34,506 bases of DNA. Source: a virus. Shown in pieces: positions 8,165 through 31,702 of this stretch. Location: the IMG/VR virus record IMGVR_UViG_3300008267_000173, positions 1-34,506 of that record. The stretch is one strand, 5' to 3'. The notes under the pieces are model-generated. The model was not told where the DNA came from. It saw only the letters and a list, made by a program, of their open reading frames with translations, and made no database searches. The position numbers were made by a program, and so were the translations under genes. Position 1 is the first letter of the stretch. Each line of letters opens with the position of its first letter.

Positions 8165-8167
8165 CAT

Positions 8168-9073: not shown

Positions 9074-9083
9074 ATTTACTTAT

Positions 9084-9127
9084 AAAGCTAGGACACTAAC
9101 ATAGACATTGTGTCCTAGCTTTCTTAT
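9084..9127 (+). terminator. Rho-independent terminator after the gp32-like gene
   Basis: A perfect 13-bp stem pairs AAAGCTAGGACAC (9084-9096) with GTGTCCTAGCTTT (9110-9122) around a 13-nt loop, followed by CTTATTTTT. It separates the gp32-like gene from the recombinase gene, so the ssDNA-binding protein can be made in excess on its own transcript. Confidence 0.88.
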
Positions 9128-9158
9128 TTTTAGGTAATAACAATATTATACATAGACA

Positions 9159-10157: not shown

Positions 10158-10180
10158 GTGTAACCATTAAACAAACTATA

Positions 10181-11188: not shown

Positions 11189-11191
11189 ATT

Positions 11192-11647
11192 ATGAAAGAG
11201 CAACAAGACGCAACGAAACTAGAGTTTTTGATGATGGTTAATGATAACATCATTGTTCAGAGATTTTTTAATGTTAGGGATTTTAATCCTAAGGCTAAAA
11301 CTTCGATGGACTTGTATTATCTAATCAGAGAATTCTCAAATGAAATTGAGTACCAACTTAAAATGAAAACGGTTGTCTATATGATGGACAACATGGATGA
11401 AATCACTACGAATCCGGCTATGTTGGAGACATCGTATACTGATGGACCTGAGCATATTAACATCTTTGTTAAGCAAGGAGACATGACAATTTGTCACAGA
11501 CAGTTCAATGCAAAAGTATACCCTCCAAAGGTAAGATACACCGTAGATGTACGCCCACACCTAAAAAATCTACTTATGTCTTTGACTGACATTTTTTCAT
11601 CTAAAAATTTAACATTGGAATACATGGGAGTTCCTCTATCTGTCTAA
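11192..11647 (+). CDS. Uncharacterised protein between nuclease and helicase genes (151 aa)
   Basis: I do not recognise this protein. It is 151 residues, mixed alpha/beta, without membrane segments. The start is charged, a helical part follows (~35-60, SMDLYYLIREFSNEIEYQ), then beta-rich stretches (EHINIFVKQGDMTI, KVRYTVDVRPHL) and a C-terminal helix plus strand. It sits in the replication cassette, 3 nt after the RNase H-like gene and 30 nt before the helicase, where a helicase-loading, primase-related or DNA-binding accessory function would make sense. That is inference from position only; it is shorter than T4 gp59 (217 residues) and I see no motif linking them. Confidence 0.8.
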   Translation: MKEQQDATKLEFLMMVNDNIIVQRFFNVRDFNPKAKTSMDLYYLIREFSNEIEYQLKMKTVVYMMDNMDEITTNPAMLETSYTDGPEHINIFVKQGDMTICHRQFNAKVYPPKVRYTVDVRPHLKNLLMSLTDIFSSKNLTLEYMGVPLSV

Positions 11648-11655
11648 TATTTATT
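11647..11655 (+). promoter_or_regulatory. ATATTTATT motif upstream of the helicase gene
   Basis: The same 9-mer as at 7190 overlaps the end of the preceding gene's stop region and lies 22 nt before the helicase ATG. It is one of five occurrences of the TATTTAT core in short intergenic gaps. The promoter role is speculative. Confidence 0.22.
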
Positions 11656-11677
11656 TTTACATTAAAAGAGAAACACT

Positions 11678-13072: not shown

Positions 13073-13073
13073 T

Positions 13074-14021
13074 ATGGAACCAATTTTAAAAGAAAACCCG
13101 AACAGATTTGTTATCTTCCCTATCGAATATAATGACATTTGGGAGTACTACAAACAACACCAAGCAGCTTTTTGGACTGCTGAGGAGATTGATTTAACAA
13201 GTGATATTCGTGATTGGGAAAACCTTTCTGATAACGAAAAATACTTTGTTAAGAATGTATTGTCGTTCTTTGCGGCGTCTGATGGTATTGTAAACGAAAA
13301 CTTGGCGGAGAATTTCCTAAAAGAAGTTCAATACCCTGAAGCTAAGTTCTTTTACGGATTCCAATTAATGATGGAAAATATTCACTCATTAATGTATTCA
13401 TTATTAATCGATACTTATGTGTCAAACCCAGAAGAAAAGGATGAGTGTTTTAATGCGATTGATAGATTACCTGCAGTTCAGAAGAAAGCTAAATGGGCTT
13501 TAGATTGGATTGAAAACGCATCTTTCCAAGAAAGACTTGTTGCGTTCGCAGCGGTTGAAGGAATCTTTTTCTCAGGTTCATTCTGTTCAATATTTTGGTT
13601 AAAATCTCGAGGTATCATGCAAGGTTTATGTAACGCTAATTCACTTATTTTTAAGGACGAAAACTTACATTGTGACTTCGCTATTCACTTATTAAATAAT
13701 CACGTGAAAGAAAGACCAAGTGAAAAACGAATCAAAGAGATTCTACTTTCAGCACTTGAAATTGAAAAAGAATTTATTACAGAATCATTACCAGTATCTT
13801 TGATTGGAATGAATTCAAATCTAATGAAACAATATCTTGAATTTGTTGTTGATGGATTATTAGTAAAACTTGGGTGTAAAAAAGAGTTTAATGTTGAACA
13901 ACCATTTAAATTCATGGAACAAATTGCGGTTGAGACTAAAGGTAATTTCTTTGAGTCAAGAACTGTGGAATATCAAAAAGCAAAATTGAATGAAACACTT
14001 TCATTCACTGATGATTTTTAA
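13074..14021 (+). CDS. nrdB: Class I ribonucleotide reductase small subunit
   Basis: This 315-residue subunit holds the di-metal/tyrosyl radical needed to make dNTPs. Ligands are at D40 (EEIDLTSD), E101 and H104 (MENIHS), E162 (AVEGIFFSG) and E196/H199 (KDENLHC). The radical tyrosine is Y108. The sequence reads very like eukaryotic R2 ([30 protein letters not shown]), the type also found in Bacteroidota, and ends in a short tail with TDDF that would bind the large subunit. I chose the ATG at 13074 rather than an in-frame ATG at 12975, which lies inside the helicase gene and would add a lysine-rich extension unlike R2. It starts one base after the helicase stop. Confidence 0.95.
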
Positions 14022-14034
14022 TTAAAACTTATAT

Positions 14035-16464
14035 ATGATGTCATTGAAAATTAAAAAAAGAGGTGGGGAGGAAATGTCTTTTAACCCACAAAAAATTTAT
14101 AACCGAGTTAAGAGAGCGGCAAAAGGTTTGAGTGTTAACTCAGATGAAATTTTTATTAAAGTAATCACTTCAGTACCAACTGAAGGTACTATTACAACCA
14201 AAGAACTTGACAAACTAGTTTATGAGATTGCGGCTTCTTACACAGGAAGTCACCATGATTACTCAAGACTAGCTTCTTCGGTTGCGATATCTTCATACCA
14301 CAAAGAGACTAATGAAAGTTTCTCAGAAACAATGAAGTTATTACACGGTCACGGAATTATTAATGATATCTTGATTGATACTATTAATAGATATGGTGAA
14401 GAAAACATTGATAGTGTTATTAATCATGAAAATGATTATAATTTTGACTACTTCGCTTGGCGTTCACTGCAAGAGATGTATTTGTTGAAAACACCGAAAG
14501 GTGTGGTTGTTGAGAGACCACAACACATGTACATGAGAGTTGCTCTTTGGGTTACTAAAACATTTGAAGACGCTGTTGAGTACTACCATTCATTGTCACA
14601 ACAATTAATTTCACCGGCAACACCAATCATGATTAACGCTGGTACTAAAGTACCTCAGTTAGCGTCTTGTGTGTTACACTACAATAACTCAGATTCAAGA
14701 GACGGTCTTTTGAACACTATGAGAGATATCTCAACATACTCTTCAGACGCGGCGGGTATTGGACTTTCTATGTCTAATATTCGTAGTAAAGAAAGTCGTA
14801 TAAATTCTTCAGGTGGTTACGCAGGTGGGTTATTGAAGTACTTAAAAATTGTTAACGAATCATTACGATTCTTTAATCAACAAGGACGTAGACCTGGTAG
14901 TGCGGCTATTTACTTGGAACCATGGCACAAAGACATTTTTGATTTATTGGACATCAAAAAGAACACAGGTGCTGAGGAACTTAGAGCTCGTGACTTGTTC
15001 ACGGCACTATGGTTACCTGACAATTTCATGAAAGCGGTTGAAACGAATGGTGATTGGTATTTGTTCTGTCCTAACGACATTATCAAAGCTGGTATCAAAC
15101 CATTACAGGAAACTTATGGGGATGAATACGAAAGAAACTATAATAAAGCGGTGTCTTTAGGTCTTGGTAAAAAAACTAAGGCACAAGAGATTTGGAATAA
15201 AATTATTGAATCACAAGTTGAAACAGGTGTTCCTTATTTATTGGCTAAAGACAATGTAAACTCTAAGAGTAATCACCAAAACATCGGTGTTGTTAAACAA
15301 TCCAACCTTTGTGCTGAGATTATTCAGTATACTGACGAGGAAACTACCGCAATTTGTACCCTATCATCTATGGTTCTTAAAAACTTTATCAAAGATGGTA
15401 AGTTTGATTTCAAACTACTTCATGATGAAACAAGAAAAGTTGTTAGAGCGTTGAATAAAGTGGTTGACATTAACAACTACTCAACTGAGAAAGGTCGTAA
15501 AGGAGGTATGGAACAAAGAGCAATTGCTATTGGTACACAGGGACTTGCTGACGTTTTCTATTTGATGGATTATATTTTCACATCGGAAGAGGCTCGTCAA
15601 TTGAACAAAGATATTTTTGAAACTATCTATTACGCGGCTATTAGTGAAAGTAACGAGTTGTGTAGAACTGAAGAATACCAACCATATAAATTCTTTGAAG
15701 GTTCACCAATGTCAAAAGGAGATTTCCAATTTGATTTATGGGGTCTTAAAGAAGAAGAACTATCTGGTTTTTGGGATTGGAATGGTTTAAAAGATGATGT
15801 TGCTAAATGGGGTGTATGTAATTCATTATTTACGGCTCAGATGCCTGTAGCATCTTCAGCAAAAATTACAGGTTCATTTGAAATGACAGAACCAGCACAT
15901 TCGGCGTTGTTTAATCGTCGTGTTGTTGGTGGTGAGATTATGATTGTTAACAAATATCTTATTAACGATTTTGAAAAAATTGGTATTTGGTGTGAAGAGT
16001 TAAAGAATGAAATCATCATGAACGAAGGTTCAATTCAAAACATTAACTTTAACAATTATCTTGACCCAGAAGAAAAAAGTTACAATAAAAAAGTTAAAAG
16101 AATTGAACACTTAATCCCTAAGTACAAAACTATTTGGGAGATTTCACAAAGAGAATTAATTGATATGGCGGCTGACAGAGCACCATTCATTGACCAAACA
16201 CAATCAATGAATATCTACATGTCAAACCCTACATTATCTAAAATTTCTTCATCACATTTCCACTCATGGAAAAAAGGATTGAAAACTTTGTGTTACTACG
16301 TCAGAACCAAAGCAATTTCAACAGGAGCTAAACACTTGGCGGTTGATATTTCTAAAGTTGGTAAACAATCTACTAAGAGTGTGGAAACACCCGTAGTTAA
16401 TTATAATCAGGAAACACAAAAACCAACAGATTCTCAATTTGAATGTTTTGGTTGTTCATCTTAA
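14035..16464 (+). CDS. nrdA: Class I ribonucleotide reductase large subunit
   Basis: This 809-residue catalytic subunit reduces ribonucleoside diphosphates to deoxy forms. Residues ~4-95 look like an ATP-cone (KIKKRGGEE, FNPQKIYNRV) for allosteric control. Active-site pieces are C212 in LASC, N424-C426-E428 in NLCAE and C441 in AICTLSS. The radical-transfer tyrosines are Y754/Y755 in LCYYVRT. The C-terminal redox pair is C804/C807 in ECFGCSS. Overall it resembles the eukaryotic-type R1, matching the small subunit. It starts 13 nt after nrdB (ATG at 14035; a second ATG at 14038 is equally possible). No intein or intron interrupts it, although phage nrdA genes often carry one. A strong terminator follows. 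Confidence 0.95.
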   Translation: MMSLKIKKRGGEEMSFNPQKIYNRVKRAAKGLSVNSDEIFIKVITSVPTEGTITTKELDKLVYEIAASYTGSHHDYSRLASSVAISSYHKETNESFSETMKLLHGHGIINDILIDTINRYGEENIDSVINHENDYNFDYFAWRSLQEMYLLKTPKGVVVERPQHMYMRVALWVTKTFEDAVEYYHSLSQQLISPATPIMINAGTKVPQLASCVLHYNNSDSRDGLLNTMRDISTYSSDAAGIGLSMSNIRSKESRINSSGGYAGGLLKYLKIVNESLRFFNQQGRRPGSAAIYLEPWHKDIFDLLDIKKNTGAEELRARDLFTALWLPDNFMKAVETNGDWYLFCPNDIIKAGIKPLQETYGDEYERNYNKAVSLGLGKKTKAQEIWNKIIESQVETGVPYLLAKDNVNSKSNHQNIGVVKQSNLCAEIIQYTDEETTAICTLSSMVLKNFIKDGKFDFKLLHDETRKVVRALNKVVDINNYSTEKGRKGGMEQRAIAIGTQGLADVFYLMDYIFTSEEARQLNKDIFETIYYAAISESNELCRTEEYQPYKFFEGSPMSKGDFQFDLWGLKEEELSGFWDWNGLKDDVAKWGVCNSLFTAQMPVASSAKITGSFEMTEPAHSALFNRRVVGGEIMIVNKYLINDFEKIGIWCEELKNEIIMNEGSIQNINFNNYLDPEEKSYNKKVKRIEHLIPKYKTIWEISQRELIDMAADRAPFIDQTQSMNIYMSNPTLSKISSSHFHSWKKGLKTLCYYVRTKAISTGAKHLAVDISKVGKQSTKSVETPVVNYNQETQKPTDSQFECFGCSS

Positions 16465-16560: not shown

Positions 16561-17019
16561 ATGGCAGATGGATTCACATATGGTATAAATTTCCCCTTTC
16601 AAGATTCTTTTGATGGGAAGTATCTTAGTTTATCGGATTTAACTGAAGAGGAGATTAGAACTGATTTAGTCCATCTAATTTTAACTAGAAAAGGTAGTAG
16701 GTATTTTTTACCTGATTTTGGTACAAGATTATATGAGTATATCTTTGAACCACTTGACGGTCCTACGTTTTCTGATATCTCAGCTGAAATTAGACAATCG
16801 GTTGAGGATTATATGCCAAACTTAAAGATTACTAATATCAGTGTTATTCCGGCTTCGGCGGGTGAAGAGAACAAAGGGACTTATATAAATCAGGACGACC
16901 AAAGAGAGTTCAGAGTGACAAATATAAGTCAATTAGAACATACCGCTAAAATTAAAATAGAATATACTATAACTGAAACAGCATTTGATACTACAGATTT
17001 CATAATTATCAATATTTAA
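16561..17019 (+). CDS. 25: Baseplate wedge protein gp25 (GPW/gp25 family)
   Basis: This 152-residue protein forms the conserved inner wedge core that holds the first sheath ring in contractile tails. The family signature is clear: DLVHLILTRKGSRYFLPDFG followed by TRLYEYIFEPLD (residues ~35-70), then a helix and paired strands up to the C-terminus. T4 gp25 is 132 residues. An insertion near residues 100-125 (EENKGTYINQDDQ) makes this one slightly longer. It opens the baseplate operon after a terminator, and gp6 follows 6 nt downstream, the usual partner since gp25 docks on the gp6 ring. Confidence 0.93.
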   Translation: MADGFTYGINFPFQDSFDGKYLSLSDLTEEEIRTDLVHLILTRKGSRYFLPDFGTRLYEYIFEPLDGPTFSDISAEIRQSVEDYMPNLKITNISVIPASAGEENKGTYINQDDQREFRVTNISQLEHTAKIKIEYTITETAFDTTDFIIINI

Positions 17020-17025: not shown

Positions 17026-18864
17026 ATGCCTAATAAGAAAATATCGTATACCACTAGGGACTTCCAATCAATCAGGACTGAGTTGATTAATTTTACTCGT
17101 ACTTACTATCCTGAAGTGGTTGATAATTTTAATGACGCTTCGGTATTTTCAGTATTGATGGATTTGAATGCTGCGGTAACAGATAACCTACACTATAATA
17201 TTGACCGAAGTATACAAGAAACCGTATTACAATACGCTCAACAAAGGTCATCAATTTTTAATATTGCAAGAACTTACGGACTTAAAGTTCCTGGTATGAG
17301 ACCTTCGGTTTCATTGGTTGATTTCTCAATTACAGTACCTGCATTTGGTGATAAAGAAGATATTAGATATTGTGGTATATTGAGACGAGGTTCTCAAGTT
17401 AGTGGAGGTGGACAAACGTTTGAAACGGTTTATGACATTGATTTTGCGTCACCAACAAGTGCTGAGGGGTACCCAAATAGATTAAAAATACCGAATTTCG
17501 ACTCTAATAATAAGTTAATTAACTATACAATCGTAAAAAGAGAAACGGTGGTAAACGGGGTGACCAAAGTCTTCAAAAGAGTAATAACACCTGTAGATGT
17601 TAGACCGTTTTTAGAAATTTTCTTACCCGAAAAAAATGTTTTGGGTGTAACAAGTGTATTATTAAAAGATGGTACACAATATGCCAACGTACCAAGTGCT
17701 CAAGAGTTCTTAGGTCTTAATAACAGATGGTACGAAGTTAGTGCTTTGGCGGAAGACAGAGTATTCATTGAAGACCCAACTAAAGTTTCTGATAAACCGG
17801 GAATTAAAGTAGGACGTTATATTCAAGTCAATGATAAATTTATTACTGAGTATACACCGGAAGGTTATATGAAAATGACATTTGGTGGTGGTAGTCAATC
17901 GGCGGACGAACAATTAAGGGAGTTTGCAAGAAACGGATATGTTTTAAATTTAAACAAATACTCCAATAACTTCGCATTAGGTAGTGTGTTAAAATCAAAC
18001 ACTACATTATTTGTTCAGTATAGAGTTGGTGGTGGTAGTGTAAGTAACTTAGGTGTTAATACTATTACACAGATTGGTACTGTATCATTCTTTGTTAACG
18101 GACCATCCGAAAACGCCAATACAAGTGTCATTAACTCATTAAGATGTACTAACGTAACCGCGGCTATTGGTGGGGCTAATTTCCCAACAACTGAAGAGGT
18201 TAGAAATTTAGTGGCGTTTAACTTCTCAGCTCAAAACAGAGCGGTAACAATTAATGATTATAACTCACTTATTAGAACAATGCCTTCACAATTTGGTGCA
18301 CCTGCTAAGGTTGCCATTACTGAGGAAAATAATAAAATTAAGATACAGATGTTATCTTATGATGAGACTGGTTCATTAACCGAAATTGTATCAAATACGT
18401 TAAAAAATAATGTTGCAAACTACCTCTCAAATTACCGAATGATTAATGACTACGTTTCAATAGAAACAGCTAACGTAATTGATTTAGGTGTTAATATTGA
18501 TGTGGTTTTAGATAATAGTCAAAACCAAGGTGCTGTTATATCACAAATAATCAATATTGCTACAGAATTCTTCAGTCCTTTAAATAGAGAAATGGGTGAA
18601 AACATTTTTGTGTCAGAATTAAGAAGATTAATTCAGAGTGAAAACGGTGTTATTGCGGTTTCAGATATACAATTCTTTAATTTAGTTGGTGGTCAATATT
18701 CTTCATCACAAACATCACAAAAGTATTCAGACCCTGTTACTAGACAGATTGAACTAATTGACGATACCATCTTTGCACAACCAAACCAAATTTACCAAGT
18801 AAGATTCCCAAACAAAGATATTAATGTTAGGGTGAAGAATCTTAAAACGGTTAATTTTTCTTGA
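17026..18864 (+). CDS. 6: Baseplate wedge protein gp6 (baseplate J-like)
   Basis: This 612-residue protein should form the continuous inner ring of the baseplate, pairing as a dimer with a gp7-type subunit. The N-terminus has the typical gp6/J opening (ISYTTRDFQSIRTELI, then FNDASVFSVLMDLNAAVTDNL, QQRSSIFNIARTYG). A beta-rich middle (~95-330) is followed by the conserved part with NFSAQNRAVTINDYNSLI (~410-425) and a C-terminal domain including SELRRLIQSENGV. T4 gp6 is 660 residues. It follows gp25 after 6 nt and precedes the very large protein after a 72-nt gap. Confidence 0.88.
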   Translation: MPNKKISYTTRDFQSIRTELINFTRTYYPEVVDNFNDASVFSVLMDLNAAVTDNLHYNIDRSIQETVLQYAQQRSSIFNIARTYGLKVPGMRPSVSLVDFSITVPAFGDKEDIRYCGILRRGSQVSGGGQTFETVYDIDFASPTSAEGYPNRLKIPNFDSNNKLINYTIVKRETVVNGVTKVFKRVITPVDVRPFLEIFLPEKNVLGVTSVLLKDGTQYANVPSAQEFLGLNNRWYEVSALAEDRVFIEDPTKVSDKPGIKVGRYIQVNDKFITEYTPEGYMKMTFGGGSQSADEQLREFARNGYVLNLNKYSNNFALGSVLKSNTTLFVQYRVGGGSVSNLGVNTITQIGTVSFFVNGPSENANTSVINSLRCTNVTAAIGGANFPTTEEVRNLVAFNFSAQNRAVTINDYNSLIRTMPSQFGAPAKVAITEENNKIKIQMLSYDETGSLTEIVSNTLKNNVANYLSNYRMINDYVSIETANVIDLGVNIDVVLDNSQNQGAVISQIINIATEFFSPLNREMGENIFVSELRRLIQSENGVIAVSDIQFFNLVGGQYSSSQTSQKYSDPVTRQIELIDDTIFAQPNQIYQVRFPNKDINVRVKNLKTVNFS

Positions 18865-18936: not shown

Positions 18937-21900
18937 ATGTCAAATTCATATAGAATAAGAACAAAACCCGGTGTTGATAGTTCAGTTAGAGTACTAATTG
19001 ACCAAGAGTTTGAGTATCTTGAAATTTTATCCTTAAAAATATTACAAAATCAAATTTATAATCGTCAGTGTTCTGACTATGGGGTTATCGTAGGTCGTGT
19101 TAGTGTTAACAACGGATTCGGTATTCCAAACGCCAAAGTTTCTGTCTTTATTCCATTGGAGGATATTGATGAAAACGACCCTGTTATTTCTGATTTATAT
19201 CCGTATAAAACATTAACTGATTTAAATGAAGACGGGTATCGTTATAACCTTCTACCTTACAAACAACAACATGGTGGACACACACCAACAGGTACCTTCT
19301 TTACTCGTGAGGATGTCTTAACCAACCCAAGTCTAATTGAGGTTTACGACAAGTATTATAAGTATAATGCGGTCACCAATGATAGTGGTGATTACATGAT
19401 ATTTGGTGTTCCTGTTGGTGCTCAAACTATTGTGGTGGACATTGACCTGTCAGATATCGGTGAGTTTTCATTATCACCCCAAGACTTAATTAGAATGGGT
19501 ATTGCCACTGAAAATCAAGTTTCAGGAACTAAGTTTAAGTCATCCACTAATCTAAGAGAGTTACCACAAATCCTAACATTTAACAGAACTATTGAAGTTG
19601 AACCTTTATGGGGTCAACCTGATATTTGTAATCTTGGGATTACTAGAACTGACTTTGATGTTAGTGGTGAAGCAAATATTGACATAACCCCAACTTCTGT
19701 GTTTATGGGGTCTTTAGTTTCGTCAAATGATGATACCTACTTAAAGAAAAATTGTAAATCAAAACCAACCGCTGGGGATTTATGTTCATTAGTTACAGGA
19801 CCTGGTGAGATTCTTGCAATAAGACAAACCATACAACAAGATATCTACGGAAGACCAATACTTGAAACCTATGATTTGGAAAATGGGGGTCAAGTTATTG
19901 ATGAGAATGGTACTTGGATGATTGATGTACCGATGAACTTGGATTATGTAACAACCAACGAATTTGGTGATAAGGTAATATCATCCGACCCTAAAGTCGG
20001 TATCCCAACAAAGAGTAAATACAGGTTTAAGGTTAAGTGGAATCAATCACCATCATTAAGTGCCGACCCAATCAAACGAGGTTATTATTTAGTCCCAAAC
20101 ATTAAAGAGTACGGGTGGTTACCTGACGTTGACCCATTAACTGATGGTTCGGCAACCTCAACCAATACCGATGCAGCTCAAAGGTCTTACGCTTTTAGTT
20201 TAGATTGGAATGATTACGGTAATACGGGAACAACCATCGGTCAACAAATGATTCAAGACGCCATTAGTTGTGAGGATAGATTCTATGAAATGCAATACAA
20301 TAAAGTATACACCATTTCACAATTAATATCACAATACCGAAATGGTTATGCCAATTCTAAAATTATATCAGTTAAGGATATTTTAAATACTGATTGTCAA
20401 AGTGAGAACAATAAGTTCCCAACAAACGACGCGGTGTTTAAATCAGATATTATCTATTTGTTGTTTCAAATAATGTTGTTAATAAACCAACCAACATTAT
20501 ACACCTTACTAATTTTAGCGCACGTTTTGGCGTTTTTAATTTTATTACTAACACCAATACTAGTACTTCTGGTTGTAGTTGTTTTCCCATTCACCTTATT
20601 AGTTTGTGGTATTAACAATGTTTTGGCAAATTTATTCCCAAATAAGTTTGACCATAAAGATTGTCCTAACTTCCAAGACTTAAAAGAAGATATTGATAAA
20701 GCGGCTAACTTATATAAATTGTTTACCAACATAAGACTACCTAATTTATCTTACCCTGATTGTGACTTCTGTAGTTGTGAGAACGGAGTTGAGGTTGGTG
20801 GTGCTGAAGAGACCATAGGGGCGACAGGACTTGATAGTTTATATGTCCAAGCGGAGGAAAACGGGGCAAACGCTTTATTAACCGCATCTGAAGTTTCCGA
20901 TTCTTACGTTGAAAACGACCCGTTGTATGTAACGGATGGTAACTCATATGAAAAGTTATTTGGTGGTAAAGGTATGGGTGCGGTTGGTTCCGTAACAAAT
21001 CCTGCGACTGCTCAAACAAGAGCCCCTCAAATTCAATTACTGACTAGTGCGGTTACACAGAATGAGTTAATATTTACCTCAAGTATACCATTATATGAAA
21101 GAATAAATTTATTTAATAATAAGTCTAAATATTTTGATAATAATCCATTAAACCCCGGTGGTGGAGTTAACAGAATTAAAGTATCATTCAACCCTAATGA
21201 CGGTGTATATCATTACGACAATGTCATTGCGTTGATGGTACAACCTGGTAATGATTTATTCTTCCAATCAGGAAATATCGTTACATTCCAAGCACCTGTT
21301 TTAAGTAAAGACCCAAGTATAACGGGTTATACATCATTAAATCAGTACGGGACTACAAGTATCACAGGAACATCAATTAATAATTCAGGGGGTACTGTAT
21401 CTGTTGAATACGCGGATTTCGCAAACTCTAACACATTATTAAATCAGACTTACACTAGTCAACAAGACCCTAATGACGCAACATTTGCAAAATACCCTAT
21501 GGACATTGAGTATTTCCAAGTAATTACCGCGTCAACTTATAATGAGTTTAATTCATTATGTAGTCCAACACCTAATGTTAATTCTTTGAATGAAAGATTT
21601 ATAAAAAACCCAATGAATGTGTATAAGATGGTTAAAACCGAAAATCCTTCCGGACCATCTTTGGGTAATTATTATTACAATTATGTACAGACAAATCAAT
21701 TAGTTAGTCCTATAAGTGCATTAACTGAAAATGTTGACCAAAAAATTGTTTTCTTAGTTAGAGGTGTTGACCCTAACACAACTAGGTCGGAATGTGAATA
21801 CGATTTAAGTATTCTTTATGGTTATAATTCGGCAAGTGGTAATGTCGTTGTTAAATCAGGTGTTAACGGAGCCCCTAAATTCAAATTAAACCACCCCGTA

Positions 21901-24030
21901 AAACCAGGTTTTAAAAATGTTAGACATAATATCACAAACAACACAACTTTAGACTCTTATAGTAACGGATACTTATATCACGACTCATACCACTTCCAAC
22001 CGGCATCTGTGGGTAACGCATCATTCAGTTCGTTCACATCGAATTTAGTTTCAACGTACTCATCATTGGATAATCTTAATATGGGGTTTGTACCATCTGC
22101 GGGTTCCCCAACATTGAATGTTGGATTTTCTGCGTCAACTGAGGGTGTTAAGGTAAGGTCTAATAATGCGTTTAGTGTTGAGTATTCTGATATAACAGGT
22201 AACACTTATAGTGTTAATAGTGGTACGAATAATCGAGGTTATTTTGGTGACGAAATTGTTGAGGGTGGTAGTGGTTTGTACCAAGTTATACCAACATTTA
22301 ATACTTACGGTTCATTATTAGGTCCGGCAATCGCTCCAAATACGTTCTTATCAATTTATTACGCACCGGCTTACCCAACAGGAACTACCATTAATTATGG
22401 TTTAGGTTCGTCTGGTCGACAAATAGTGATGAGGTCTGATAGATTACCATTATCAAGTACTAAACAAAATAATCTAAATAATAGTTTCCCATTACAATCT
22501 AATTTATATTTCTCAGTATTTGTTATGAATGATGACGGTACGTCAATATCGAGTACAGGTACTACATCATCAGGTGGTGTTACATTGACGGGTACTACGT
22601 TGGATAATTTAGATAATACTGGCGAACCATCAATTATTACGGGTGTTACGAATACATTTAATTGTGGTAGTATGGTACCACTTGGTTGTTACCAAGAAGG
22701 TCCAAATAATAGTTTAATAGTAGCACCTGCGGGTGATAGTTGTTATAATAATCCCGCGGTTTGTGGTGGTAAACCTAAAATGGTTAACGGGTGTTATAAC
22801 TTTGTTTCGGTAATATTTTTATCGTTACCTTGTGATATTATTAATTTAACTGAATGGTCATCAAGGTTGGCGATAACTTTTGCCGCTTGTAGAAACGTTT
22901 TCGGTCACATGTTTACCAATAACTGGATTAACGGTACCTTATACGCTTTTGGTTTTAGAAATGATGTGGTGTATAGTTCACCTTTATCCCCAAATCCAAA
23001 TCAGATAATATCCGCTAATTATTGTGAGGATGTGGTTACACTACACCCAACAACAAATTTCTACTATAGAAGTAGTCCTTATTTATATACGAATAATACG
23101 TTTATTGGTAAAAAATCACAAACAGGTTTTTTTGGTTCATTTAATGGAAATGAATATAGTCTACAATTCCCAACAACTATGATGGATTTAGGACCAAGAG
23201 CAAACTACCTACAAGATATCGTTTTATCTGACGGGTTTGATGGTTATGTTGCTAATAAATTAACAAATACATCTTATTCTGATGTTAGTGATATTTTAAA
23301 CCTATTCATTGTGACTCGTTTAGCTAACACTAATTTCTTAACTCAGTTAATTGGAGGTGCTAACGCATTAACATTCTTTAGTAGACCTAATAACATGGTT
23401 GACGCTGATTACGCTCAATCAATTTCCGTTAACTCAGAGTTAGGTGTTGCACCTTTCGAATCTTCTAACTATGCACAACCTAATCAAATATTTGTTAGTT
23501 CTTTGAGTGGTGATGACCCATTATTTGGTATTTTCTTCACATCTGACACTCAAGTAAGAGATTATATCACACCAAAAAGAACTATTTTAAACCCTTCTGT
23601 TAGTGTAAGTAATTCTTGTGCATTTAATAACTTTAGCGTGTTTACACAAAAAGTACCTATGTATCAGTGGGAGATTAATAACTCACCATATATTTTTGGT
23701 GACCAAAAAAATGATTGGTATACACAAGGGATTAGTGGAAATACATTCTTTGCTTATGACTACCAAAGTCTTGATAGATTATTATCCACCTCAAGATATT
23801 TTAGAACTACTAACGCTAACCAAAATGACTACTTTAAAAGTTATATTTATAGTGTTGATAACACCGGAAATATTAGTTCGAACCCCGCTTATTGGGCTTT
23901 AAATACTTACGTTGCTAGAGCAATCACTGTCGGGACACCATTCCACTTTTATTTCGGATTAAAAAAAGGTAAATCGGCTTACGATAGATTCTTGTCTAAG
24001 TGGGTTGATACTAATAAGGTTGTTGCGTAA
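18937..24030 (+). CDS. Giant baseplate/tail protein with internal hydrophobic segment (1697 aa)
   Basis: This is an unidentified structural protein following gp6. The N-terminal ~30 residues are charged. Residues ~48-170 look like one carboxypeptidase-regulatory/CNA-B type beta-sandwich (VIVGRVSVNNGFGIPNAKVSVFIP, closing with TNDSGDYMIFGVPVGAQTIVV) split by an insertion. Residues ~505-562 are strikingly hydrophobic, enough for two membrane-spanning helices (LLILAHVLAFLILLL, TPILVLLVVVVFPFTLLV), followed by a Cys-rich stretch (~575-620, CDFCSC). The remaining ~1070 residues are Asn/Ser/Thr/Gly-rich beta structure as in phage spikes and fibres. Position suggests a wedge or peripheral baseplate part; a membrane-contacting function is inference from the hydrophobic segment. 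The next gene begins one base after its stop. Confidence 0.8.
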   Translation: MSNSYRIRTKPGVDSSVRVLIDQEFEYLEILSLKILQNQIYNRQCSDYGVIVGRVSVNNGFGIPNAKVSVFIPLEDIDENDPVISDLYPYKTLTDLNEDGYRYNLLPYKQQHGGHTPTGTFFTREDVLTNPSLIEVYDKYYKYNAVTNDSGDYMIFGVPVGAQTIVVDIDLSDIGEFSLSPQDLIRMGIATENQVSGTKFKSSTNLRELPQILTFNRTIEVEPLWGQPDICNLGITRTDFDVSGEANIDITPTSVFMGSLVSSNDDTYLKKNCKSKPTAGDLCSLVTGPGEILAIRQTIQQDIYGRPILETYDLENGGQVIDENGTWMIDVPMNLDYVTTNEFGDKVISSDPKVGIPTKSKYRFKVKWNQSPSLSADPIKRGYYLVPNIKEYGWLPDVDPLTDGSATSTNTDAAQRSYAFSLDWNDYGNTGTTIGQQMIQDAISCEDRFYEMQYNKVYTISQLISQYRNGYANSKIISVKDILNTDCQSENNKFPTNDAVFKSDIIYLLFQIMLLINQPTLYTLLILAHVLAFLILLLTPILVLLVVVVFPFTLLVCGINNVLANLFPNKFDHKDCPNFQDLKEDIDKAANLYKLFTNIRLPNLSYPDCDFCSCENGVEVGGAEETIGATGLDSLYVQAEENGANALLTASEVSDSYVENDPLYVTDGNSYEKLFGGKGMGAVGSVTNPATAQTRAPQIQLLTSAVTQNELIFTSSIPLYERINLFNNKSKYFDNNPLNPGGGVNRIKVSFNPNDGVYHYDNVIALMVQPGNDLFFQSGNIVTFQAPVLSKDPSITGYTSLNQYGTTSITGTSINNSGGTVSVEYADFANSNTLLNQTYTSQQDPNDATFAKYPMDIEYFQVITASTYNEFNSLCSPTPNVNSLNERFIKNPMNVYKMVKTENPSGPSLGNYYYNYVQTNQLVSPISALTENVDQKIVFLVRGVDPNTTRSECEYDLSILYGYNSASGNVVVKSGVNGAPKFKLNHPVKPGFKNVRHNITNNTTLDSYSNGYLYHDSYHFQPASVGNASFSSFTSNLVSTYSSLDNLNMGFVPSAGSPTLNVGFSASTEGVKVRSNNAFSVEYSDITGNTYSVNSGTNNRGYFGDEIVEGGSGLYQVIPTFNTYGSLLGPAIAPNTFLSIYYAPAYPTGTTINYGLGSSGRQIVMRSDRLPLSSTKQNNLNNSFPLQSNLYFSVFVMNDDGTSISSTGTTSSGGVTLTGTTLDNLDNTGEPSIITGVTNTFNCGSMVPLGCYQEGPNNSLIVAPAGDSCYNNPAVCGGKPKMVNGCYNFVSVIFLSLPCDIINLTEWSSRLAITFAACRNVFGHMFTNNWINGTLYAFGFRNDVVYSSPLSPNPNQIISANYCEDVVTLHPTTNFYYRSSPYLYTNNTFIGKKSQTGFFGSFNGNEYSLQFPTTMMDLGPRANYLQDIVLSDGFDGYVANKLTNTSYSDVSDILNLFIVTRLANTNFLTQLIGGANALTFFSRPNNMVDADYAQSISVNSELGVAPFESSNYAQPNQIFVSSLSGDDPLFGIFFTSDTQVRDYITPKRTILNPSVSVSNSCAFNNFSVFTQKVPMYQWEINNSPYIFGDQKNDWYTQGISGNTFFAYDYQSLDRLLSTSRYFRTTNANQNDYFKSYIYSVDNTGNISSNPAYWALNTYVARAITVGTPFHFYFGLKKGKSAYDRFLSKWVDTNKVVA

Positions 24031-24031
24031 T

Positions 24032-25804
24032 ATGGGAAATTTAAGTGAAATAAGAGTTATTTTAGGTTCGTTGAGGTACAAATCCGCACCCGACACGACC
24101 ATCATGTTGAATGTGCCTTTTGTACAAACAACTAAAGAAAATGTTGAGTTCGAGAGAAACATTAATATAGACTTAGAACAAGTCTACTTCAATGAAAGAC
24201 AAGCGTCCGAAGTATTTAGACCAACGGCAAAATTTAATTTATTGTTCTACAATGCTTATAGTGGGACAAGTAATTACACACCATTTGAAAATAATATGTA
24301 TTATATTAATGAACTTGCCGCAGCGGTTTCACAATGTGATACAACCGCTCAACAAGTTGCGTGGTCGGGATTCCCACAATATAACGAATTTGATTTTATA
24401 AGAACTGATTATGATATTACAGGGTACACCCAACCACCTAATAACCACTTAACATTTATTCCGAAAAGCGCTTCTAGTTATAATTGGAATTTTTTTGTTA
24501 GTTACGCTTTTGAAAATGATTATACAAAACAATTAAGTGCTGTTGAGACAAAGTCTGGTATATCGGTCAATTGGTTATCGGGTGACGGAATCCCATTTGT
24601 TTTGTTCCCAACCACTTACAAAGGACAGGACATTATAATGTTTAGATGTCCGGTAAAACATGGATTAACAACGGGTGAATATGTCAGATTAAATATAACC
24701 TACAATAATACTAATACCTTTGAGGTTTACACTCTTGGTGATGGTGCTGCGGGTAGTGAAGAATACGTTTTCTCAATTACAAATATTGGATTTACAGGAG
24801 GTACTTTAACAACTAGTGGAACAACTGGTACCTTTAAACGAGTTATAAACCCAACGAACCCAACTGAAAGTACTTCTGAGTATTATGTTAGAAAACATAA
24901 AATACTAACCTCATCTAAAGATGCGGTTATGGTTAACGCGGGATTCGACCAAAACATTTTTGGTCCAAAACGAAAATATCAAAGTAGTGGTTTAACACCT
25001 AACCAAATTAGTCGAATCGCCACAAAAGAAGGTGCACAATCATACTCCCTAACATTCAACGACGACATTAGTATTAATGGTTTAGTTGATAATCAAAAAA
25101 GACCAATAACTGAATTATTCATAACCACTATGTGGAAAGGTTATTTTGGTTTAACATGTTTTAACCCATTAAAACAAGGGTATGAGTTTAACTTACCTTT
25201 AGTTAGTGGTAACGTAAACGGATGGTGGTCAACAAGTAATAATAACTCTAACACACCATTTGTACTTGATGTTTATAATACTACCATGGGTGCTAATGGA
25301 GGGCCTGGTGGGGGTGCGATACCGTTTAAATATGTAAGGTCTTTAGAAAAAGATTATATAATGGATGGTGATTTGTGTGAGTGGAATGACATGGCTCAAG
25401 AAGAAAGGGTTGTATCGAATCTATATCATAAATTCACAATGAATCCGTTTGTATTCAATATCCTAACTCCACCACAATCTGCATTAAATCGATATGGTTA
25501 TTATTATCAACCACACTCACCGATGACTTTGAGGGTTTATTCTGATTATATTGAGACTGGTGATAAAAAACAAGTTGATAATATACCTAACTACTCGTAC
25601 TTCTCACAAAATGAAGGTGTGTTCTTATGGAGGGATTTATACCCATATGGATTCATAGATTCATCAGGATTAGGGGTTAATTATCCATTTTTAAATGGAA
25701 AACATTACCCATATACTGATATAATTTTTAGAATAATTCCTGAAGGTACTAATTATATAGAACAGGTTATTGTTGAAGACCCATTAATTGACGATTGTGA
25801 ATAA
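24032..25804 (+). CDS. Uncharacterised baseplate/tail protein (590 aa)
   Basis: I do not recognise the family. The protein is beta-rich, with many aromatic residues (NWNFFVSYAFEND, TTMWKGYFGLTCFNP, PNYSYFSQNEGVFLWRDL) and a glycine-rich turn near 420-430 (GANGGPGGGAIPF). No signal peptide or membrane segment is present. I start it at ATG 24032, one base after the stop of the preceding gene, giving an N-terminus MGNLSEIRVILGSL. An upstream in-frame ATG at 24005 would lie in the previous gene. It occupies the place of the T4 gp8/gp9-gp10 genes between wedge and fibre proteins, so a peripheral baseplate role is a fair guess from context only. Confidence 0.8.
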   Translation: MGNLSEIRVILGSLRYKSAPDTTIMLNVPFVQTTKENVEFERNINIDLEQVYFNERQASEVFRPTAKFNLLFYNAYSGTSNYTPFENNMYYINELAAAVSQCDTTAQQVAWSGFPQYNEFDFIRTDYDITGYTQPPNNHLTFIPKSASSYNWNFFVSYAFENDYTKQLSAVETKSGISVNWLSGDGIPFVLFPTTYKGQDIIMFRCPVKHGLTTGEYVRLNITYNNTNTFEVYTLGDGAAGSEEYVFSITNIGFTGGTLTTSGTTGTFKRVINPTNPTESTSEYYVRKHKILTSSKDAVMVNAGFDQNIFGPKRKYQSSGLTPNQISRIATKEGAQSYSLTFNDDISINGLVDNQKRPITELFITTMWKGYFGLTCFNPLKQGYEFNLPLVSGNVNGWWSTSNNNSNTPFVLDVYNTTMGANGGPGGGAIPFKYVRSLEKDYIMDGDLCEWNDMAQEERVVSNLYHKFTMNPFVFNILTPPQSALNRYGYYYQPHSPMTLRVYSDYIETGDKKQVDNIPNYSYFSQNEGVFLWRDLYPYGFIDSSGLGVNYPFLNGKHYPYTDIIFRIIPEGTNYIEQVIVEDPLIDDCE

Positions 25805-26594
25805 TAGTTACAAATTTATATTAAGTGATTTACCACAAGTTATTGAGTTACCAGTCGAACTCAAGTGGGATTTCTATGGTCGTGACGAAACGATTGATGA
25901 ATATCAAGAAGAGGTTGTTAATGAAATTATAGGTTCACCTTATGATTTTGAAGTGTTAAGATTTACTCATAAAGAGTACGGCCAAGAACAGACTAAGTTA
26001 CAATACGATTTTTATTTTTATAGTGGTAACCCAAATAACGTAACCACCTCAACAAACGCCAATTGGGTATGTAGTTATTTACCTGAAGGGTTTTTGTCTA
26101 CTGAAGTTTATTACTACCGTCCGGCTTTTACTAAGTCATTTTTTAAGTTAGATTTTTATGATAGTTTAAGTGGTGTTAGTCAAACTAATTATTTCACAGT
26201 TATTTTACCTGTACAACAAGGTGGTAGTGAGACAGTCAGTATATCAACAGCGTTACCATCTGTTCAGATTAAAAAACCATCGATGCCTTTAGACTTTGTT
26301 GGTGATAGTGAAGGGTTTTACTTGTATTGGTTAAGAGACCCAAAATTTTTACCAACGGATACTTTTTATATGACGGCAAAATTCTTCGACGCAAGACTAG
26401 GTGTTTTTGTTAAGATGATGAACACTTCACAAGGTTCATTACCCGACAAGTTCAACTTTGTACCCGAAGAAAAGTTTTACTATAAAGTTGTCATAGACAG
26501 ACAAACAAAAACTTATGAAATTTTCAATGTTGTAACGAATGTTAGAGTTGGAAATGGAACTCCAATAAAATGGTATGAATATATTAACCCATAA
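25797..26594 (+). CDS. Uncharacterised structural protein (265 aa)
   Basis: I do not recognise the family. It is beta-rich and aromatic, with no membrane segment (YKFILSDLPQVIELPVELKW at the start; FYLYWLRDPKFLPTDTFYM near 175; KWYEYINP at the end). No ATG is available near the 5' end. I prefer GTG at 25797, which overlaps the previous gene by 8 nt; TTG at 25788 is the alternative and adds three residues. The next gene starts on the last base of its stop (TAATG). The tight overlap indicates translation coupled to its neighbours and a part in the same tail substructure. Confidence 0.75.
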   Translation: MNNSYKFILSDLPQVIELPVELKWDFYGRDETIDEYQEEVVNEIIGSPYDFEVLRFTHKEYGQEQTKLQYDFYFYSGNPNNVTTSTNANWVCSYLPEGFLSTEVYYYRPAFTKSFFKLDFYDSLSGVSQTNYFTVILPVQQGGSETVSISTALPSVQIKKPSMPLDFVGDSEGFYLYWLRDPKFLPTDTFYMTAKFFDARLGVFVKMMNTSQGSLPDKFNFVPEEKFYYKVVIDRQTKTYEIFNVVTNVRVGNGTPIKWYEYINP

Positions 26595-27775
26595 TGGATA
26601 ACAGACAATATCATATTAGAATATCGCCGGAAGTTATTAAAAATGATATCTTCCCCGTTAACACCTACGCCGAATATTCCGACACGGAGTTGATACCGTA
26701 TTGTTGTGATATAATAACTCGTGAAGTTATTAAGTATGTTACAGGAACAACTTACGTTTATTCATCCATGACTCAAATATTATCAGGTGGTACTGATGGT
26801 ACGTCATTATTAACAGGACTTACCGTTCCCATCTTATTAACTGAAAATACGATTGATTTGGGGTACTATAGTGTTTTTGATGGGATGGTTACTCAGCAAG
26901 AAACAATGACTAACTTCTTGTTTTCAGCAACAACTTCATATCCTTACACTTTTTATTTTTACAATACTTCAGATACTGAATTTAAAAAATATTTAAGTTT
27001 CTCAAACTATTATTTGGATTGGGGTGACGGTAGTCCTATAGAAACTATAACAAGTACATCACCAAGTTATTATAGTCATACTTATACAATGGACGGTGAG
27101 TTTACAATTACCATGTCAGGGATGAGTCCGTGGGGTTCCAACATCATCCAAAAAACTATAACAACCCCTTATATTGATGTACCAATCTTAAACCCGCAAG
27201 GTACTGCATATTTCTTACCCGCTGGCGGTAGTTGGTCAGGTACACCGATTAGTTACAACTATATTTTCAGTGGTGACCAAGATTGTGATGTTTATCTAAA
27301 CTCAAGTTACAACTATACAACGGTACCATTTCCTGTTACGGGATATACCAAATCAACAATTAGTGACCTTGAGGTGTATGGTAAAAAAGATTTACTTTGG
27401 AATGGTAAATACAAGTTAGGTGTCTCAGTAACTGGTACTTCAGGTAATGTCGGTACAGTATGGGGTGAGTTCAATAACGGTCTTTACACCGCTTACACAA
27501 TTAACAATGTTGACTACTACGATTATAGTGATGGAAGAACGGTATTTGTTGTTATGTCATCAGGAATGACACCTGATATGATGATATGTTCAGCAATTAC
27601 AAAAAATGAAGTATTATTAAACGTAATTGATGAAGCAGAAGTTCAAACTAATGTATTTATAGAGAGAGGAAAAATATCAGGATTGGAACGAATTGAAAGA
27701 CTTGGAGAAATCAACAACATCGGTGACCTTGAAAAATATGGTTACGGATTTTTTAATATAATAAAAATAGCTTAA
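26594..27775 (+). CDS. Tail protein with PKD-type domain (393 aa)
   Basis: Residues ~137-190 form a PKD (Ig-like) domain: YLDWGDGSP, then SHTYTMDGEFTITMSG, the classic WGDG and H-Y-G pattern. PKD domains occur in surface adhesins and carbohydrate-binding enzymes and act as spacers or binding modules. The N-terminal ~110 residues and the section after the PKD are beta-rich and unassigned. The last ~45 residues change to a charged helical segment (VFIERGKISGLERIERLGEI, then LEKYGYGFFNI), perhaps a docking tail. The ATG overlaps the previous stop by one base; the next gene starts one base after this stop. Likely a peripheral baseplate or fibre-network part, by context. Confidence 0.78.
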   Translation: MDNRQYHIRISPEVIKNDIFPVNTYAEYSDTELIPYCCDIITREVIKYVTGTTYVYSSMTQILSGGTDGTSLLTGLTVPILLTENTIDLGYYSVFDGMVTQQETMTNFLFSATTSYPYTFYFYNTSDTEFKKYLSFSNYYLDWGDGSPIETITSTSPSYYSHTYTMDGEFTITMSGMSPWGSNIIQKTITTPYIDVPILNPQGTAYFLPAGGSWSGTPISYNYIFSGDQDCDVYLNSSYNYTTVPFPVTGYTKSTISDLEVYGKKDLLWNGKYKLGVSVTGTSGNVGTVWGEFNNGLYTAYTINNVDYYDYSDGRTVFVVMSSGMTPDMMICSAITKNEVLLNVIDEAEVQTNVFIERGKISGLERIERLGEINNIGDLEKYGYGFFNIIKIA

Positions 27776-27776
27776 T

Positions 27777-28682
27777 ATGGCAACAGGAACATATGGAACG
27801 ATAAGACCGGCTGATGTATCACCGGAAGATGTGGAGATAATCTTAAATTATACTCCATCAAGAGACGAAACAGATAATTTCGTCTTAACTAAATTAGATG
27901 CCGCGGCAATTCTAAAGCCTTATTTTAATAACTCAAACACAGGTGGAAATACTGTAGAAATTTTGGGTGGTTTATATAACTTAAAGTTACCTGCAGACCA
28001 ATTTAATAAATTAGGGATTTATACCCTTTATATCAGACCTGCACAAATTAGAACTTCAATCACAGATTGTGGTGTTTTAGCGGCATTACCCAACGTAAGA
28101 GGTTTGGTTATTGATTTAAATAATGTCCCTACTGAGTACAGAAACAAATTTGTTAATCAAGGATTAGTTGGTTTTAGAATTGAATATTTAAATTCAGATG
28201 GGACTAAAATACCTAATTTCTTTAGATTAATCACTTCATCATTCTTTTGTGAACCAGTTGTTCAGAATTTAACAAATACGTCACAAAAAGCTATTAGATA
28301 CCGTTACACTGATAATAATACAAATTTAGTTTTTTGTACATTATCACCATCTTCTGCACCGACTAACAAACCAAATGCGGTACCTTTTATTGGTCAACCA
28401 AATCAAGATATCTTAATATCTAATACATTCTTCAATCCAATAACTTTGGATATTGAAGTTGCGGAACACGACTTCTCAACGTTGGCGATTGCGTTGTATG
28501 GTAACCAAACCAAATCGATTGATGATGGTATCTACACAATGTACGACACTAATAATAACATTTATAGACAATACAACTTGTATGAAATTCGTGACCAATT
28601 TAATGAATTATTATACGAGGTTAGACAAGATAGAGATAATAATATTGATTATAGTAAAAACTTCTCAAACATAACACAATAA
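27777..28682 (+). CDS. Uncharacterised structural protein (301 aa)
   Basis: I do not recognise the family. Residues ~10-60 mix helix and strand (DVEIILNYTPSRDETDNFVL). The middle is beta-rich (LGIYTLYIRPAQIRTSITDC). The C-terminal ~45 residues are strongly charged and probably helical (YEIRDQFNELLYEVRQDRDN), which would suit a coiled-coil or docking end. No signal peptide or membrane segment is seen. It is packed between the PKD protein (1-nt gap) and the 1006-residue protein (1-nt stop/start overlap TAATG), so it is almost certainly made with them as part of the tail tip. Confidence 0.78.
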   Translation: MATGTYGTIRPADVSPEDVEIILNYTPSRDETDNFVLTKLDAAAILKPYFNNSNTGGNTVEILGGLYNLKLPADQFNKLGIYTLYIRPAQIRTSITDCGVLAALPNVRGLVIDLNNVPTEYRNKFVNQGLVGFRIEYLNSDGTKIPNFFRLITSSFFCEPVVQNLTNTSQKAIRYRYTDNNTNLVFCTLSPSSAPTNKPNAVPFIGQPNQDILISNTFFNPITLDIEVAEHDFSTLAIALYGNQTKSIDDGIYTMYDTNNNIYRQYNLYEIRDQFNELLYEVRQDRDNNIDYSKNFSNITQ

Positions 28683-31600
28683 TGGCAATTTCGAAATATA
28701 CTTGTCCCCCACAATCGGCAACTGGCTCAGGAACTTTTTCAGATAACTTAGTTGGTTTTCAGCTTGTAGCTGGTGGTGGATTAACGCAAGGTAATTTCCA
28801 ATTCACAACATCAATAAACGAAAAAGAAAATCGTAATTTTAGTGTTGGTACTTTCTCACAACCGATTAGTTTAGAGGGTATGGGGATTGATAGTGTTTAT
28901 CAATCTAAAACCATCTTTGAGAAAAATTACAAAGTTTATCCTAATTATGACTTAAGTCAAATAACTAATTTTACTCAATACGGGTCATTAGTTAAAAGAT
29001 TATCAACTTCGGTTGAAACTATCATTGCAAAATTCCCTGCGGCTATAGAGTCGTCTTTTATGGGGATTAACTATGTTACTGGTGAAACAGCGTTTAACAT
29101 AATTTATAGTTCGGTTAACGACACAACAACATTTAGTTTAGATGCTTCGAGAATCCGTAACCCATTTGACATTGATTTTAGTGTAAATTCAACGCAAAAT
29201 TTACAATTAAGGGAAATTGCAGTATCTCCGTTAAGAGATATGACTCTAAATTACTCAAAATATTCACTATACTATAGTGGTAATGGGTATTCGGTTGTTA
29301 ATATAGTACCAACAAATACAAATGATTTCGGTGAATTAAAAATCACAGTTCAAGGAAACCCATTCTCAGGTCAAACTATTATTTATGATAATCTTATTGT
29401 GAGACCTAATGATTTTGAGGTAAATAGAATTTTTAATGAGGATTTAGACCAAGTTGAAAACTTCCTTCTTAATAGGAATACAGCACCAATTTATACCGCA
29501 ACATTCCAAGTACCTAATCAAACGGATGACGGACAATATTACACTGAGTATAGGTCTATCCCTTGGCCATTAAATGGTTCTTGGAACTTAGATATTGTTA
29601 CTAAAGCTTTTGAAAATTATTTAACTCAACTTGATGAAGTTGGCGAATTTTTTGATTTATATGTAACTAACTTAGTTTCTCGTTTCTTTATTACTGACGC
29701 CTTTAAAGAGTTTGATACTCAGACTCAAAAGATGGAAAAAATTCTACAAATTTATGGTAGAAGTTTTGATGAAACTAAAAAATTCATAGGGGCACTTGCT
29801 TTCATGAATTCGGTAAATTACAATCCTGGTAATGACATACCATCACAACTACTTAAAAATTTAGCCCAAACTCTAGGTTGGAATATTAACATTTCACCAA
29901 TAACAAATGATGATTTTTTAAGTTCTGTTTTTGGACAAAAAAATGTTGACCAACCACAATTCACGGGAATCTCTACTGAAGCAACACCTGATGAATTAAA
30001 CTATCAATATTATAGAACATTAATCTTAAATTCTGCGTACCTATTCAAATCCAAAGGTACTCGAAAATCTATTGAAGTGTTATTGCGTTTAATAGGTGCA
30101 CCTGATGCTTTGGTTGAATTTAATGAGTATGTTTATTTAGCGGACCAAAAAATTAATATGGTTGAGTTTGGAACTCAATTCGCATCTATTTCAGGAGGTA
30201 CCTACATCCAACAAACACCAACACTCGAGGCGGGAAATACATTCTCAATCTTTGGGGTTCAGTATACAGGTTTCACTACTTCAGAAACGATTTACGATGT
30301 TAACGTTTTTAGAGATGATTACCCCGTTGACGAAGATGGATACCCTTTAGCACCTGTTAATACGGAAGAGTACTTCTTTCAAATAGGTAGTGGGTGGTTT
30401 GAGCAAACACCCGAACATAGAGCACCTGCCCAAGTAGACCCTACTTTAAACGTGTTTACCGGCGCAAACCCTAATTACCAAACAGTATTAAAACCTTATA
30501 GTTATGGTCAAGAATATTTAAACAGATTTAGGTATTTCCCTTATATGAATTTAGGGTATACGTTAACACCTGTTATTGATAATAATAAAAGTTGGACTGA
30601 ATATGAAACTGGTTTAAGGTTTAATTATGACGGTAATTTAAACGCTCGTTACATTGTTGATGATGAAAAATTAGTATTGAACGTTAAGAACGTTGATTTA
30701 TTTATGAATCCTGCACAAGGTTTGGTTTACGATGTTTGGTTCATGTCAAGACAAACTAATTACCCAATTCCAGACCAAGGTTTAAATTATGTTGCACCAA
30801 CTTATTGTGACCCAACACCGAATTCACTTTATCCACAAAGAGGTGGTGTTGATTGGACTGAAATTAACCCACAACCAAAAAGAAAAACATTCTTTGAATT
30901 TGCACAAACTTTTTGGTTAAACATGATTAATGTTAGAAATAGACAATTCGCCACTGATGGTAAAACAGGAGGGTACCCAACATTGGCATCAATTTATTGG
31001 AAGTATTTAGAATCGGAAACATTTGAAGGTATTGAAAACAACAATTTCACATACCAAACAATGATGGATTATATTAATGGTATTGGTGATTATTGGATTC
31101 GTTTAGTCGAACAGATGATTCCCGCAACAACCATTTGGAATACGGGTACTCGTTTAGAGAATTCTATTTTCCACAGACAAAAGTTTGTTTGGAGAAGACA
31201 AGAAGGTTGTCAGTTAATCCCTGTTCCTTGTAAACCTTGTGAGATAACATCAAACTTATTCTCATATGACTGTCCTGTTGAAGAAGTTGAATGTGGAATA
31301 TACCCATGGTCAACTAATAGTCAAATTACTGGTTTTGGTGGGGTGTTAGGTAGTGTTTTAGGTCAATACTTAACCACTAATGGATATACTTTAGGTAGTT
31401 GTGATTTAAACTCACTAACAACCGAATGGTTTGTTGACCTAAGGTTAAACGATGAGGTAATCGTCCAATATAGTTTCTTTAATGGTGTTGGATACTTAGA
31501 CCCTGTGTTAAGTTCACCTAGTCAAACTGAGTGGTTAAATGCTTTAGTTATCGCACTCAACGATTTAAAAAATTACGGATATGACTACTATTTAACTACT

Positions 31601-31702
31601 GAAGATACTGTGGTAATTTATAACGTGGTGTGTTCAACATCTGATGTGGGTACAAACTTTAAACTTAACGTTGGAATAAACTTTAATATATTGTGTAGTT
31701 AA
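28682..31702 (+). CDS. Large tail protein with P2 gpI/gp7-like motif (1006 aa)
   Basis: This is a large baseplate-region protein. Around residues 445-475 it reads [21 protein letters not shown], the lysine-Gly-Thr helix motif typical of P2 gpI-type tail proteins, whose T4 equivalent in the wedge is gp7. Helical parts lie at ~300-400 ([32 protein letters not shown]). Residues ~730-830 contain a Trp-rich conserved region ([20 protein letters not shown]) followed by a Cys-rich turn (CKPCEI). The final ~100 residues (three Cys at 907, 984, 1005) closely resemble a domain in the middle of the next protein. The gp7-like role is inference from the motif and the operon. Start and stop overlap its neighbours by one base. 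Confidence 0.75.

Follow-up and report, generated by a model that had tools for sequence, protein, structure and literature searches.

The window analyzed here, all 34,506 nucleotides of IMG/VR record IMGVR_UViG_3300008267_000173, encodes a giant protein whose family is unnamed in the libraries that we searched, and whose strongly hydrophobic segment is a real, conserved, and unusual feature. The phages that carry this protein form a large family of uncultured, Bacteroidetes-type, contractile-tailed phages. As a tentative explanation, to which we give somewhat less than an even chance, the segment would be a helical part of membrane type, in a protein specific to this clade, that is sheltered by the tail tip or baseplate until it contacts the host membrane at infection and there anchors the tail or helps to form the DNA passage.

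The giant protein carries an exceptionally hydrophobic segment

A preliminary description of the window had placed an almost uninterrupted hydrophobic segment at positions 20449–20622, which correspond to residues 505–562 of the giant protein (Table 1), and this is where we found it. D, E, K, and R are all absent from these residues, 72% of which are A, I, L, M, F, V, W, or C, and the best 19-residue Kyte-Doolittle mean (KD19) reaches 3.30, while the rest of the protein stays at or below 1.52. The best 40-residue hydrophobicity was 2.6, far above the values obtained from 200 shuffles of the same protein (1.07 ± 0.18, maximum 1.67). Given these Kyte-Doolittle values relative to the shuffles and to the remainder of the protein, we consider the segment real and not a product of chance. 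A dG-type membrane-insertion scan, which is a re-implementation for qualitative use only and on which the Kyte-Doolittle result does not depend, gave −0.2 for residues 505–527 and −4.1 for residues 533–555; none of the other proteins of the window scored below 0 in any segment. We rejected an assembly artefact, a frameshift, and a recent insertion, as the segment is in frame in every relative examined. An antisense ORF of 88 aa (20466–20732, minus strand) overlies the segment and is probably just a consequence of the hydrophobic codons there. The Cys-rich stretch that had been described after the segment is present as well, in the form C609xxC612xC614.

Table 1. Location of the giant-protein gene, its parts, and its conserved neighbors in the window. 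Residue numbers refer to the giant protein.
Feature	Position	Strand	Basis
gp25-like sheath initiator gene	16561..17019	+	PF04965 (E 3.3e-12), phrog_261 (E 9.2e-16)
gp6-like/Baseplate_J wedge gene, directly upstream of the giant-protein gene	17026..18864	+	PF04865 (E 1.2e-6), phrog_219 (E 2.1e-19)
Giant baseplate-cluster protein, 1697 aa	18937..24030	+	ORF and translation
Highly conserved beta-rich N-terminal region, residues 1–370	18937..20046	+	Column conservation about 0.65–0.89
Invariant Cys487, ahead of Pro495 (also invariant) and the acidic D/E498	20395..20397 (Cys487)	+	Alignment of 173 relatives
Constant membrane-type helix, residues 505–542	20449..20562	+	100-degree hydrophobicity periodicity, sector means
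His529, polar, mid-helix	20521..20523	+	H in 168/173, R in 4, Q in 1
Second hydrophobic stretch, variable within the family, residues 543–566 here	20563..20634	+	Length and hydrophobicity vary among 78 non-redundant relatives
LPNLSYPDCDFCSC motif, residues 601–614, closing the region	20737..20778	+	P602, Y606, P607, C609, C612, C614
Well-predicted beta-rich region after the segment, residues 715–1200	21079..22536	+	AlphaFold pLDDT mostly 80–95
Five conserved downstream genes (599, 268, 393, 301, and 1006 aa)	24005..31702	+	Order in 134 loci

For structure prediction, AlphaFold was run on monomers with 41 relatives, in two parts covering residues 1–740 and 715–1697. The first model was poor (mean pLDDT 52), and its best-scored part was a single helix spanning residues 505–566 (pLDDT about 84), so that the helical character proposed for the segment agrees with the prediction. 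The second was moderate (mean pLDDT 64.7), with a good stretch at residues 715–1200. By eye, residues 1–370 resemble carboxypeptidase-regulatory/Ig-like domains. As the models are poor to moderate, and as Foldseek returned no structural relative for them, including the N-terminal region and residues 715–1200, but only matches with E > 0.2, we claim no fold.

A widespread family within a contractile-tail baseplate cluster

The giant protein had no match in Pfam or PHROGs, none in INPHARED when two family members were used as tblastn queries, none in GTDB contigs, which were scanned twice, and none among PDB sequences compared with a family profile. Relatives were instead confirmed in IMG/VR, at least 558 in one scan and at least 597 in another, the two sets overlapping. 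Their contigs reach 322 kb, and four large relatives each have one locus per contig. Alignment of the N-terminal parts yielded 173 distinct relatives, the window included, sharing 41–82% identity with the window protein in the aligned portion.

Judged from sequence matches, the locus is a T4-type contractile-tail baseplate cluster: genes for gp25 and gp6/Baseplate_J lie adjacent, and among 10 large contigs of relatives, 8 had a match to a tail sheath family, while no sheath gene was found within the 34.5-kb window. The order gp25, gp6, giant-protein gene, and downstream genes is identical in 134/134 relative loci, as far as each of them extends, which bears out the earlier placement of the segment in a baseplate-region protein. 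In a 215-kb relative (L075), an ORF of 313 aa (L075:6977-7915) intervenes between gp6 and the giant-protein gene; it combines a membrane-type segment at its N-terminus with a GHSLGGYN lipase/hydrolase-like motif further along, and has no PHROG match.

Elsewhere in the window, a large tail hub gene occupies positions 760–7170, and between it and the gp25 and gp6 genes lies a block of replication and nucleotide genes (7443–16464) encoding gp32-like and RecA/UvsX-like proteins, a 5'-3' exonuclease, a DnaB-like helicase, and the small and large subunits of ribonucleotide reductase. The order helicase, reductase, gp25 is kept in many relatives. The small reductase subunit (12975–14021) is listed with a TTG start that overlaps the helicase gene, and its true start is probably further downstream. 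An 872-aa protein at 31702–34320, which also contains a long Thr/Pro-rich stretch, shows weak matches (under the Pfam cut-off) to SprB repeats, a type characteristic of gliding adhesins from Bacteroidetes and in line with a Bacteroidetes host.

The gene bS21 was found in 3 of 10 relative contigs, namely the three largest (322, 309, and 272 kb). This links the group to the bS21 phages of freshwater Bacteroidetes, which are predicted myophages of up to 331 kb with predicted hosts among those bacteria (PMC9723584); the link runs through the shared gene and the published description. The main text of that paper mentions no membrane segment, and the word "transmembrane" is absent from it.

Judged by gp6, the nearest phages in INPHARED are LR756508 (a metagenomic genome of 484 kb), Microcystis phage Mel-JY01, and Flavobacterium phage immuto. 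In all three, gp6 and a large protein are separated by one or two smaller genes, and no protein in this stretch is as hydrophobic as the segment of the window. At the level of sequence, this clade therefore seems to have added the giant protein. The 1006-aa protein matches the large protein that closely follows gp6 in Mel-JY01 and immuto (hhalign E 5e-6 and 2e-5). Mel-JY01 also encodes, upstream of its baseplate genes, a 377-aa ORF (L138:8707-9840) with a strong membrane-type segment (KD19 2.87).

One constant helix, with optional additional segments

The hydrophobic segment is kept in 173/173 distinct relatives (KD19 minimum 2.12, median 2.77); the comparison with homologues that the preliminary description had called for thus turned up none without it. 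Its surroundings are nearly as constant: C487 and P495 are each found in 173/173, residue 498 is D in 157 and E in 16, C609 and C612 are each present in 172/173, and C614 in 167/173. Between C487 and position 529 the spacing is 43 residues in 170 relatives and 44 in 3. Together, C487 and C609/C612/C614 make an attractive candidate for a zinc or Fe-S site. A small divergent set (L246, L247, L252, L260, and L236) has Arg or Gln rather than His at residue 529, and in L236 the stretch from one Cys motif to the other consists of little more than the one constant helix.

When 78 non-redundant relatives were compared, the constant unit proved to be one uncharged helix, from residue 505 to about 542, with the CxxCxC motif coming after it. 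Beyond this helix there are 0–3 further membrane-type segments, giving totals of 1 in 11 relatives, 2 in 32, 3 in 33, and 4 in 2. With a single constant helix and anything from 1 to 4 segments, the family shares no fixed hairpin: the two transmembrane helices with a Pro turn that had been proposed fit the version in the window, but not the family form. The same variation rules out an integral membrane protein of fixed topology.

Column hydrophobicity along the helix follows the alpha-helical period of 100 degrees (permutation p < 0.001). A polar stripe is centered on residue 529 (sector mean −0.07), flanked on one side by a sector at 1.3, and the remaining faces lie at 2.4–3.7; the sectors opposite residue 529 have means of 3.3–3.7, and most of the helix outside the stripe is I/L/V/F. 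The hydrophobic columns in residues 505–538 are more variable than those elsewhere in the protein (entropy 1.59 versus 0.97, p = 2e-5), a contrast that is exaggerated by the very conserved N-terminal region in the comparison set. Variable hydrophobic columns of this kind fit lipid-type exposure better than a tight core.

Comparison with tape measures and other contractile systems

Tape-measure genes typically lie right after the tube and chaperone genes, and their products are mostly helical and set tail length. In the 215-kb relative, the sheath gene is followed by genes for a 272-aa protein, the tube (phrog_4542), a hub-type protein (phrog_150), proteins of 641, 1655, and 108 aa, and the large hub. 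The 641-aa protein is helix-prone, and its position and composition suggest that it is the tape measure. Across 8/8 relatives, the protein in this position (581–652 aa) has no membrane-type segment (KD19 0.75–1.35), whereas T4 gp29 and P2 gpT do carry one (KD19 2.2 and 2.49). We rejected the giant protein itself as the tape measure, since its gene lies downstream of gp6, it is predicted to be beta-rich, and a separate protein of 581–652 aa occupies that position; possibly it works like members of the tape-measure family without belonging to it. Throughout the tail-gene region of the 215-kb relative, which spans about 79 kb with small gaps, only two other strongly hydrophobic ORFs were found, the 313-aa ORF beside the giant-protein gene and a 92-aa ORF on the reverse strand.

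A precedent is the tape measure pb2 of phage T5 (TMPpb2*), whose 46 hydrophobic residues have been proposed to insert into the outer membrane at infection and to form a channel (PMC10038345). Both are tail or tail-cluster proteins with a long hydrophobic stretch. However, pb2 serves as tape measure in a siphophage, while the giant protein is beta-rich and its gene follows gp6 in a myophage cluster; in this clade a different, helical protein takes the tape-measure position, and the segment of the window is far more hydrophobic (KD19 3.3 versus 1.82).

Among T4 baseplate proteins, gp7 resembles the giant protein in being a large wedge protein that is encoded directly after gp6 and has a predicted membrane-type stretch (residues 886–906; KD19 2.07 and, on the qualitative scan, a dG of about −0.1), which is also annotated in the GenBank record. 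The earlier assertion that T4 wedge proteins have no such segment was therefore too strong, although the gp7 stretch is single and much weaker than that of the window. The full-length gp7 chain is present in solved entries, several of which are named baseplate wedge protein. Comparisons of the giant protein by hhalign with T4 gp5–gp12 and gp53, and with the neighbors in Mel-JY01 and immuto, found nothing; orthology with gp7 was rejected, the best hit having 0.4% probability over 20 residues. As a positional counterpart of the large near-gp6 proteins, the 1006-aa gene downstream is the better candidate.

A further likeness, by description, is found in the thylakoid contractile injection system (CIS), in which the fibre-like Cis13 has a putative membrane helix whose removal frees the particles, and in which Cis12, an extended baseplate component, has a putative amphipathic helix (PMC8894136). 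These are contractile-system parts of a comparable kind, but the machine is anchored in the producer's own thylakoid, and both the proteins and the architecture are different.

Possible roles of the segment

The preliminary description had offered two roles, insertion upon contraction and a trimeric hydrophobic core, and either may hold. Our tentative reading, membrane contact at infection, would proceed as follows. Before infection, the tail tip or baseplate would shield the segment; there is precedent for shielding within a contractile system in the Eag chaperones of T6SS effectors, which shield transmembrane segments (PMC12881460). During infection, the segment would be brought to the host membrane, where the helices, that is, the constant one with its His529 polar stripe plus any optional extras, would anchor the tail or help to form a DNA passage. 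The cluster context suggests that the protein is present in virions, and we infer the shielding, the membrane insertion, its timing, and the role in a channel. Several observations point this way: the segment persists in 173/173 relatives though its sequence drifts, as would that of lipid-type residues; one face of the helix is weakly polar, while most of the rest is I/L/V/F; its KD19 exceeds those of T5 pb2, T4 gp29, and P2 gpT; and a tape-measure-position protein devoid of such a segment is found in all eight relatives. The scarcity of other strongly hydrophobic ORFs in the tail-gene region, the constant gene order over 134 loci with a contractile sheath gene in relatives, and the precedent of T5 pb2 argue in the same direction. 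Against it count the range of 1–4 segments between Cys motifs that are conserved on both sides, which implies that there is no fixed bilayer topology, and T4 gp7, a protein of solved baseplate entries that nonetheless has a predicted membrane stretch. Deletions in TP901-1 also weigh against it, as they made a membrane role for the hydrophobic regions of the tape measure doubtful and favored chaperone binding (PMC5099701). Hydrophobicity alone, as these mutants illustrate, does not settle function.

It is unlikely, though well worth weighing, that the helix is instead permanently buried, with copies packing their hydrophobic faces together or onto neighboring proteins in the baseplate and never meeting a membrane. 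T4 gp7, with its weaker predicted stretch, would be an example of such a chain, and the single long constant helix, its polar stripe, and the near-constant spacing from C487 are what a structural helix might look like; a padded core would also tolerate 1–4 segments better than a fixed membrane topology. However, I/L/V/F cover about 240 degrees of a 38-residue helix, which would need shielding on nearly all sides, the greater variability of its hydrophobic columns runs counter to the expectation for a tight core, and the extra segments that are gained and lost are of membrane length.

We consider it improbable that the segment acts in the producing cell, either by inserting into the inner membrane during synthesis, as an anchor or platform for baseplate assembly, or as part of a non-virion membrane protein. 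The co-translational insertion pathway would be expected to recognize a segment this hydrophobic (dG about −4, again qualitatively), and the freeing of thylakoid CIS particles upon removal of the Cis13 helix offers a precedent (PMC8894136). Yet virions must leave the membrane on release, so a permanent anchor would need a release step, the gene is surrounded by virion genes and, except in L075, immediately follows gp6 at every locus, and a large beta-rich protein with a well-folded predicted part after the segment is virion-protein-like.

Within membrane contact at infection, a more specific version seems to us rather doubtful: that the membrane-penetrating function has moved from the tape measure to the giant baseplate protein, and that copies of the His-striped helix, whose base carries the Cys cluster, emerge from the baseplate when the tail contracts and then line, or anchor, a passage for DNA in the membrane of the host.

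Implications for DNA entry in contractile-tailed phages

Even for T4, the way in which the DNA of a contractile-tailed phage gets across the inner membrane has been called essentially unknown (PMC11054660). A helix conserved throughout the clade, together with a tape-measure-position protein that has none, provides a specific candidate part for membrane crossing, with His529, Cys487, and the CxxCxC motif as the specific residues to consider. A family of very large phage proteins, encoded on hundreds of environmental contigs and nameless in the libraries searched, is now marked, and its conserved greasy helix, in this putative role, may help the tail to reach or cross the bacterial membrane.
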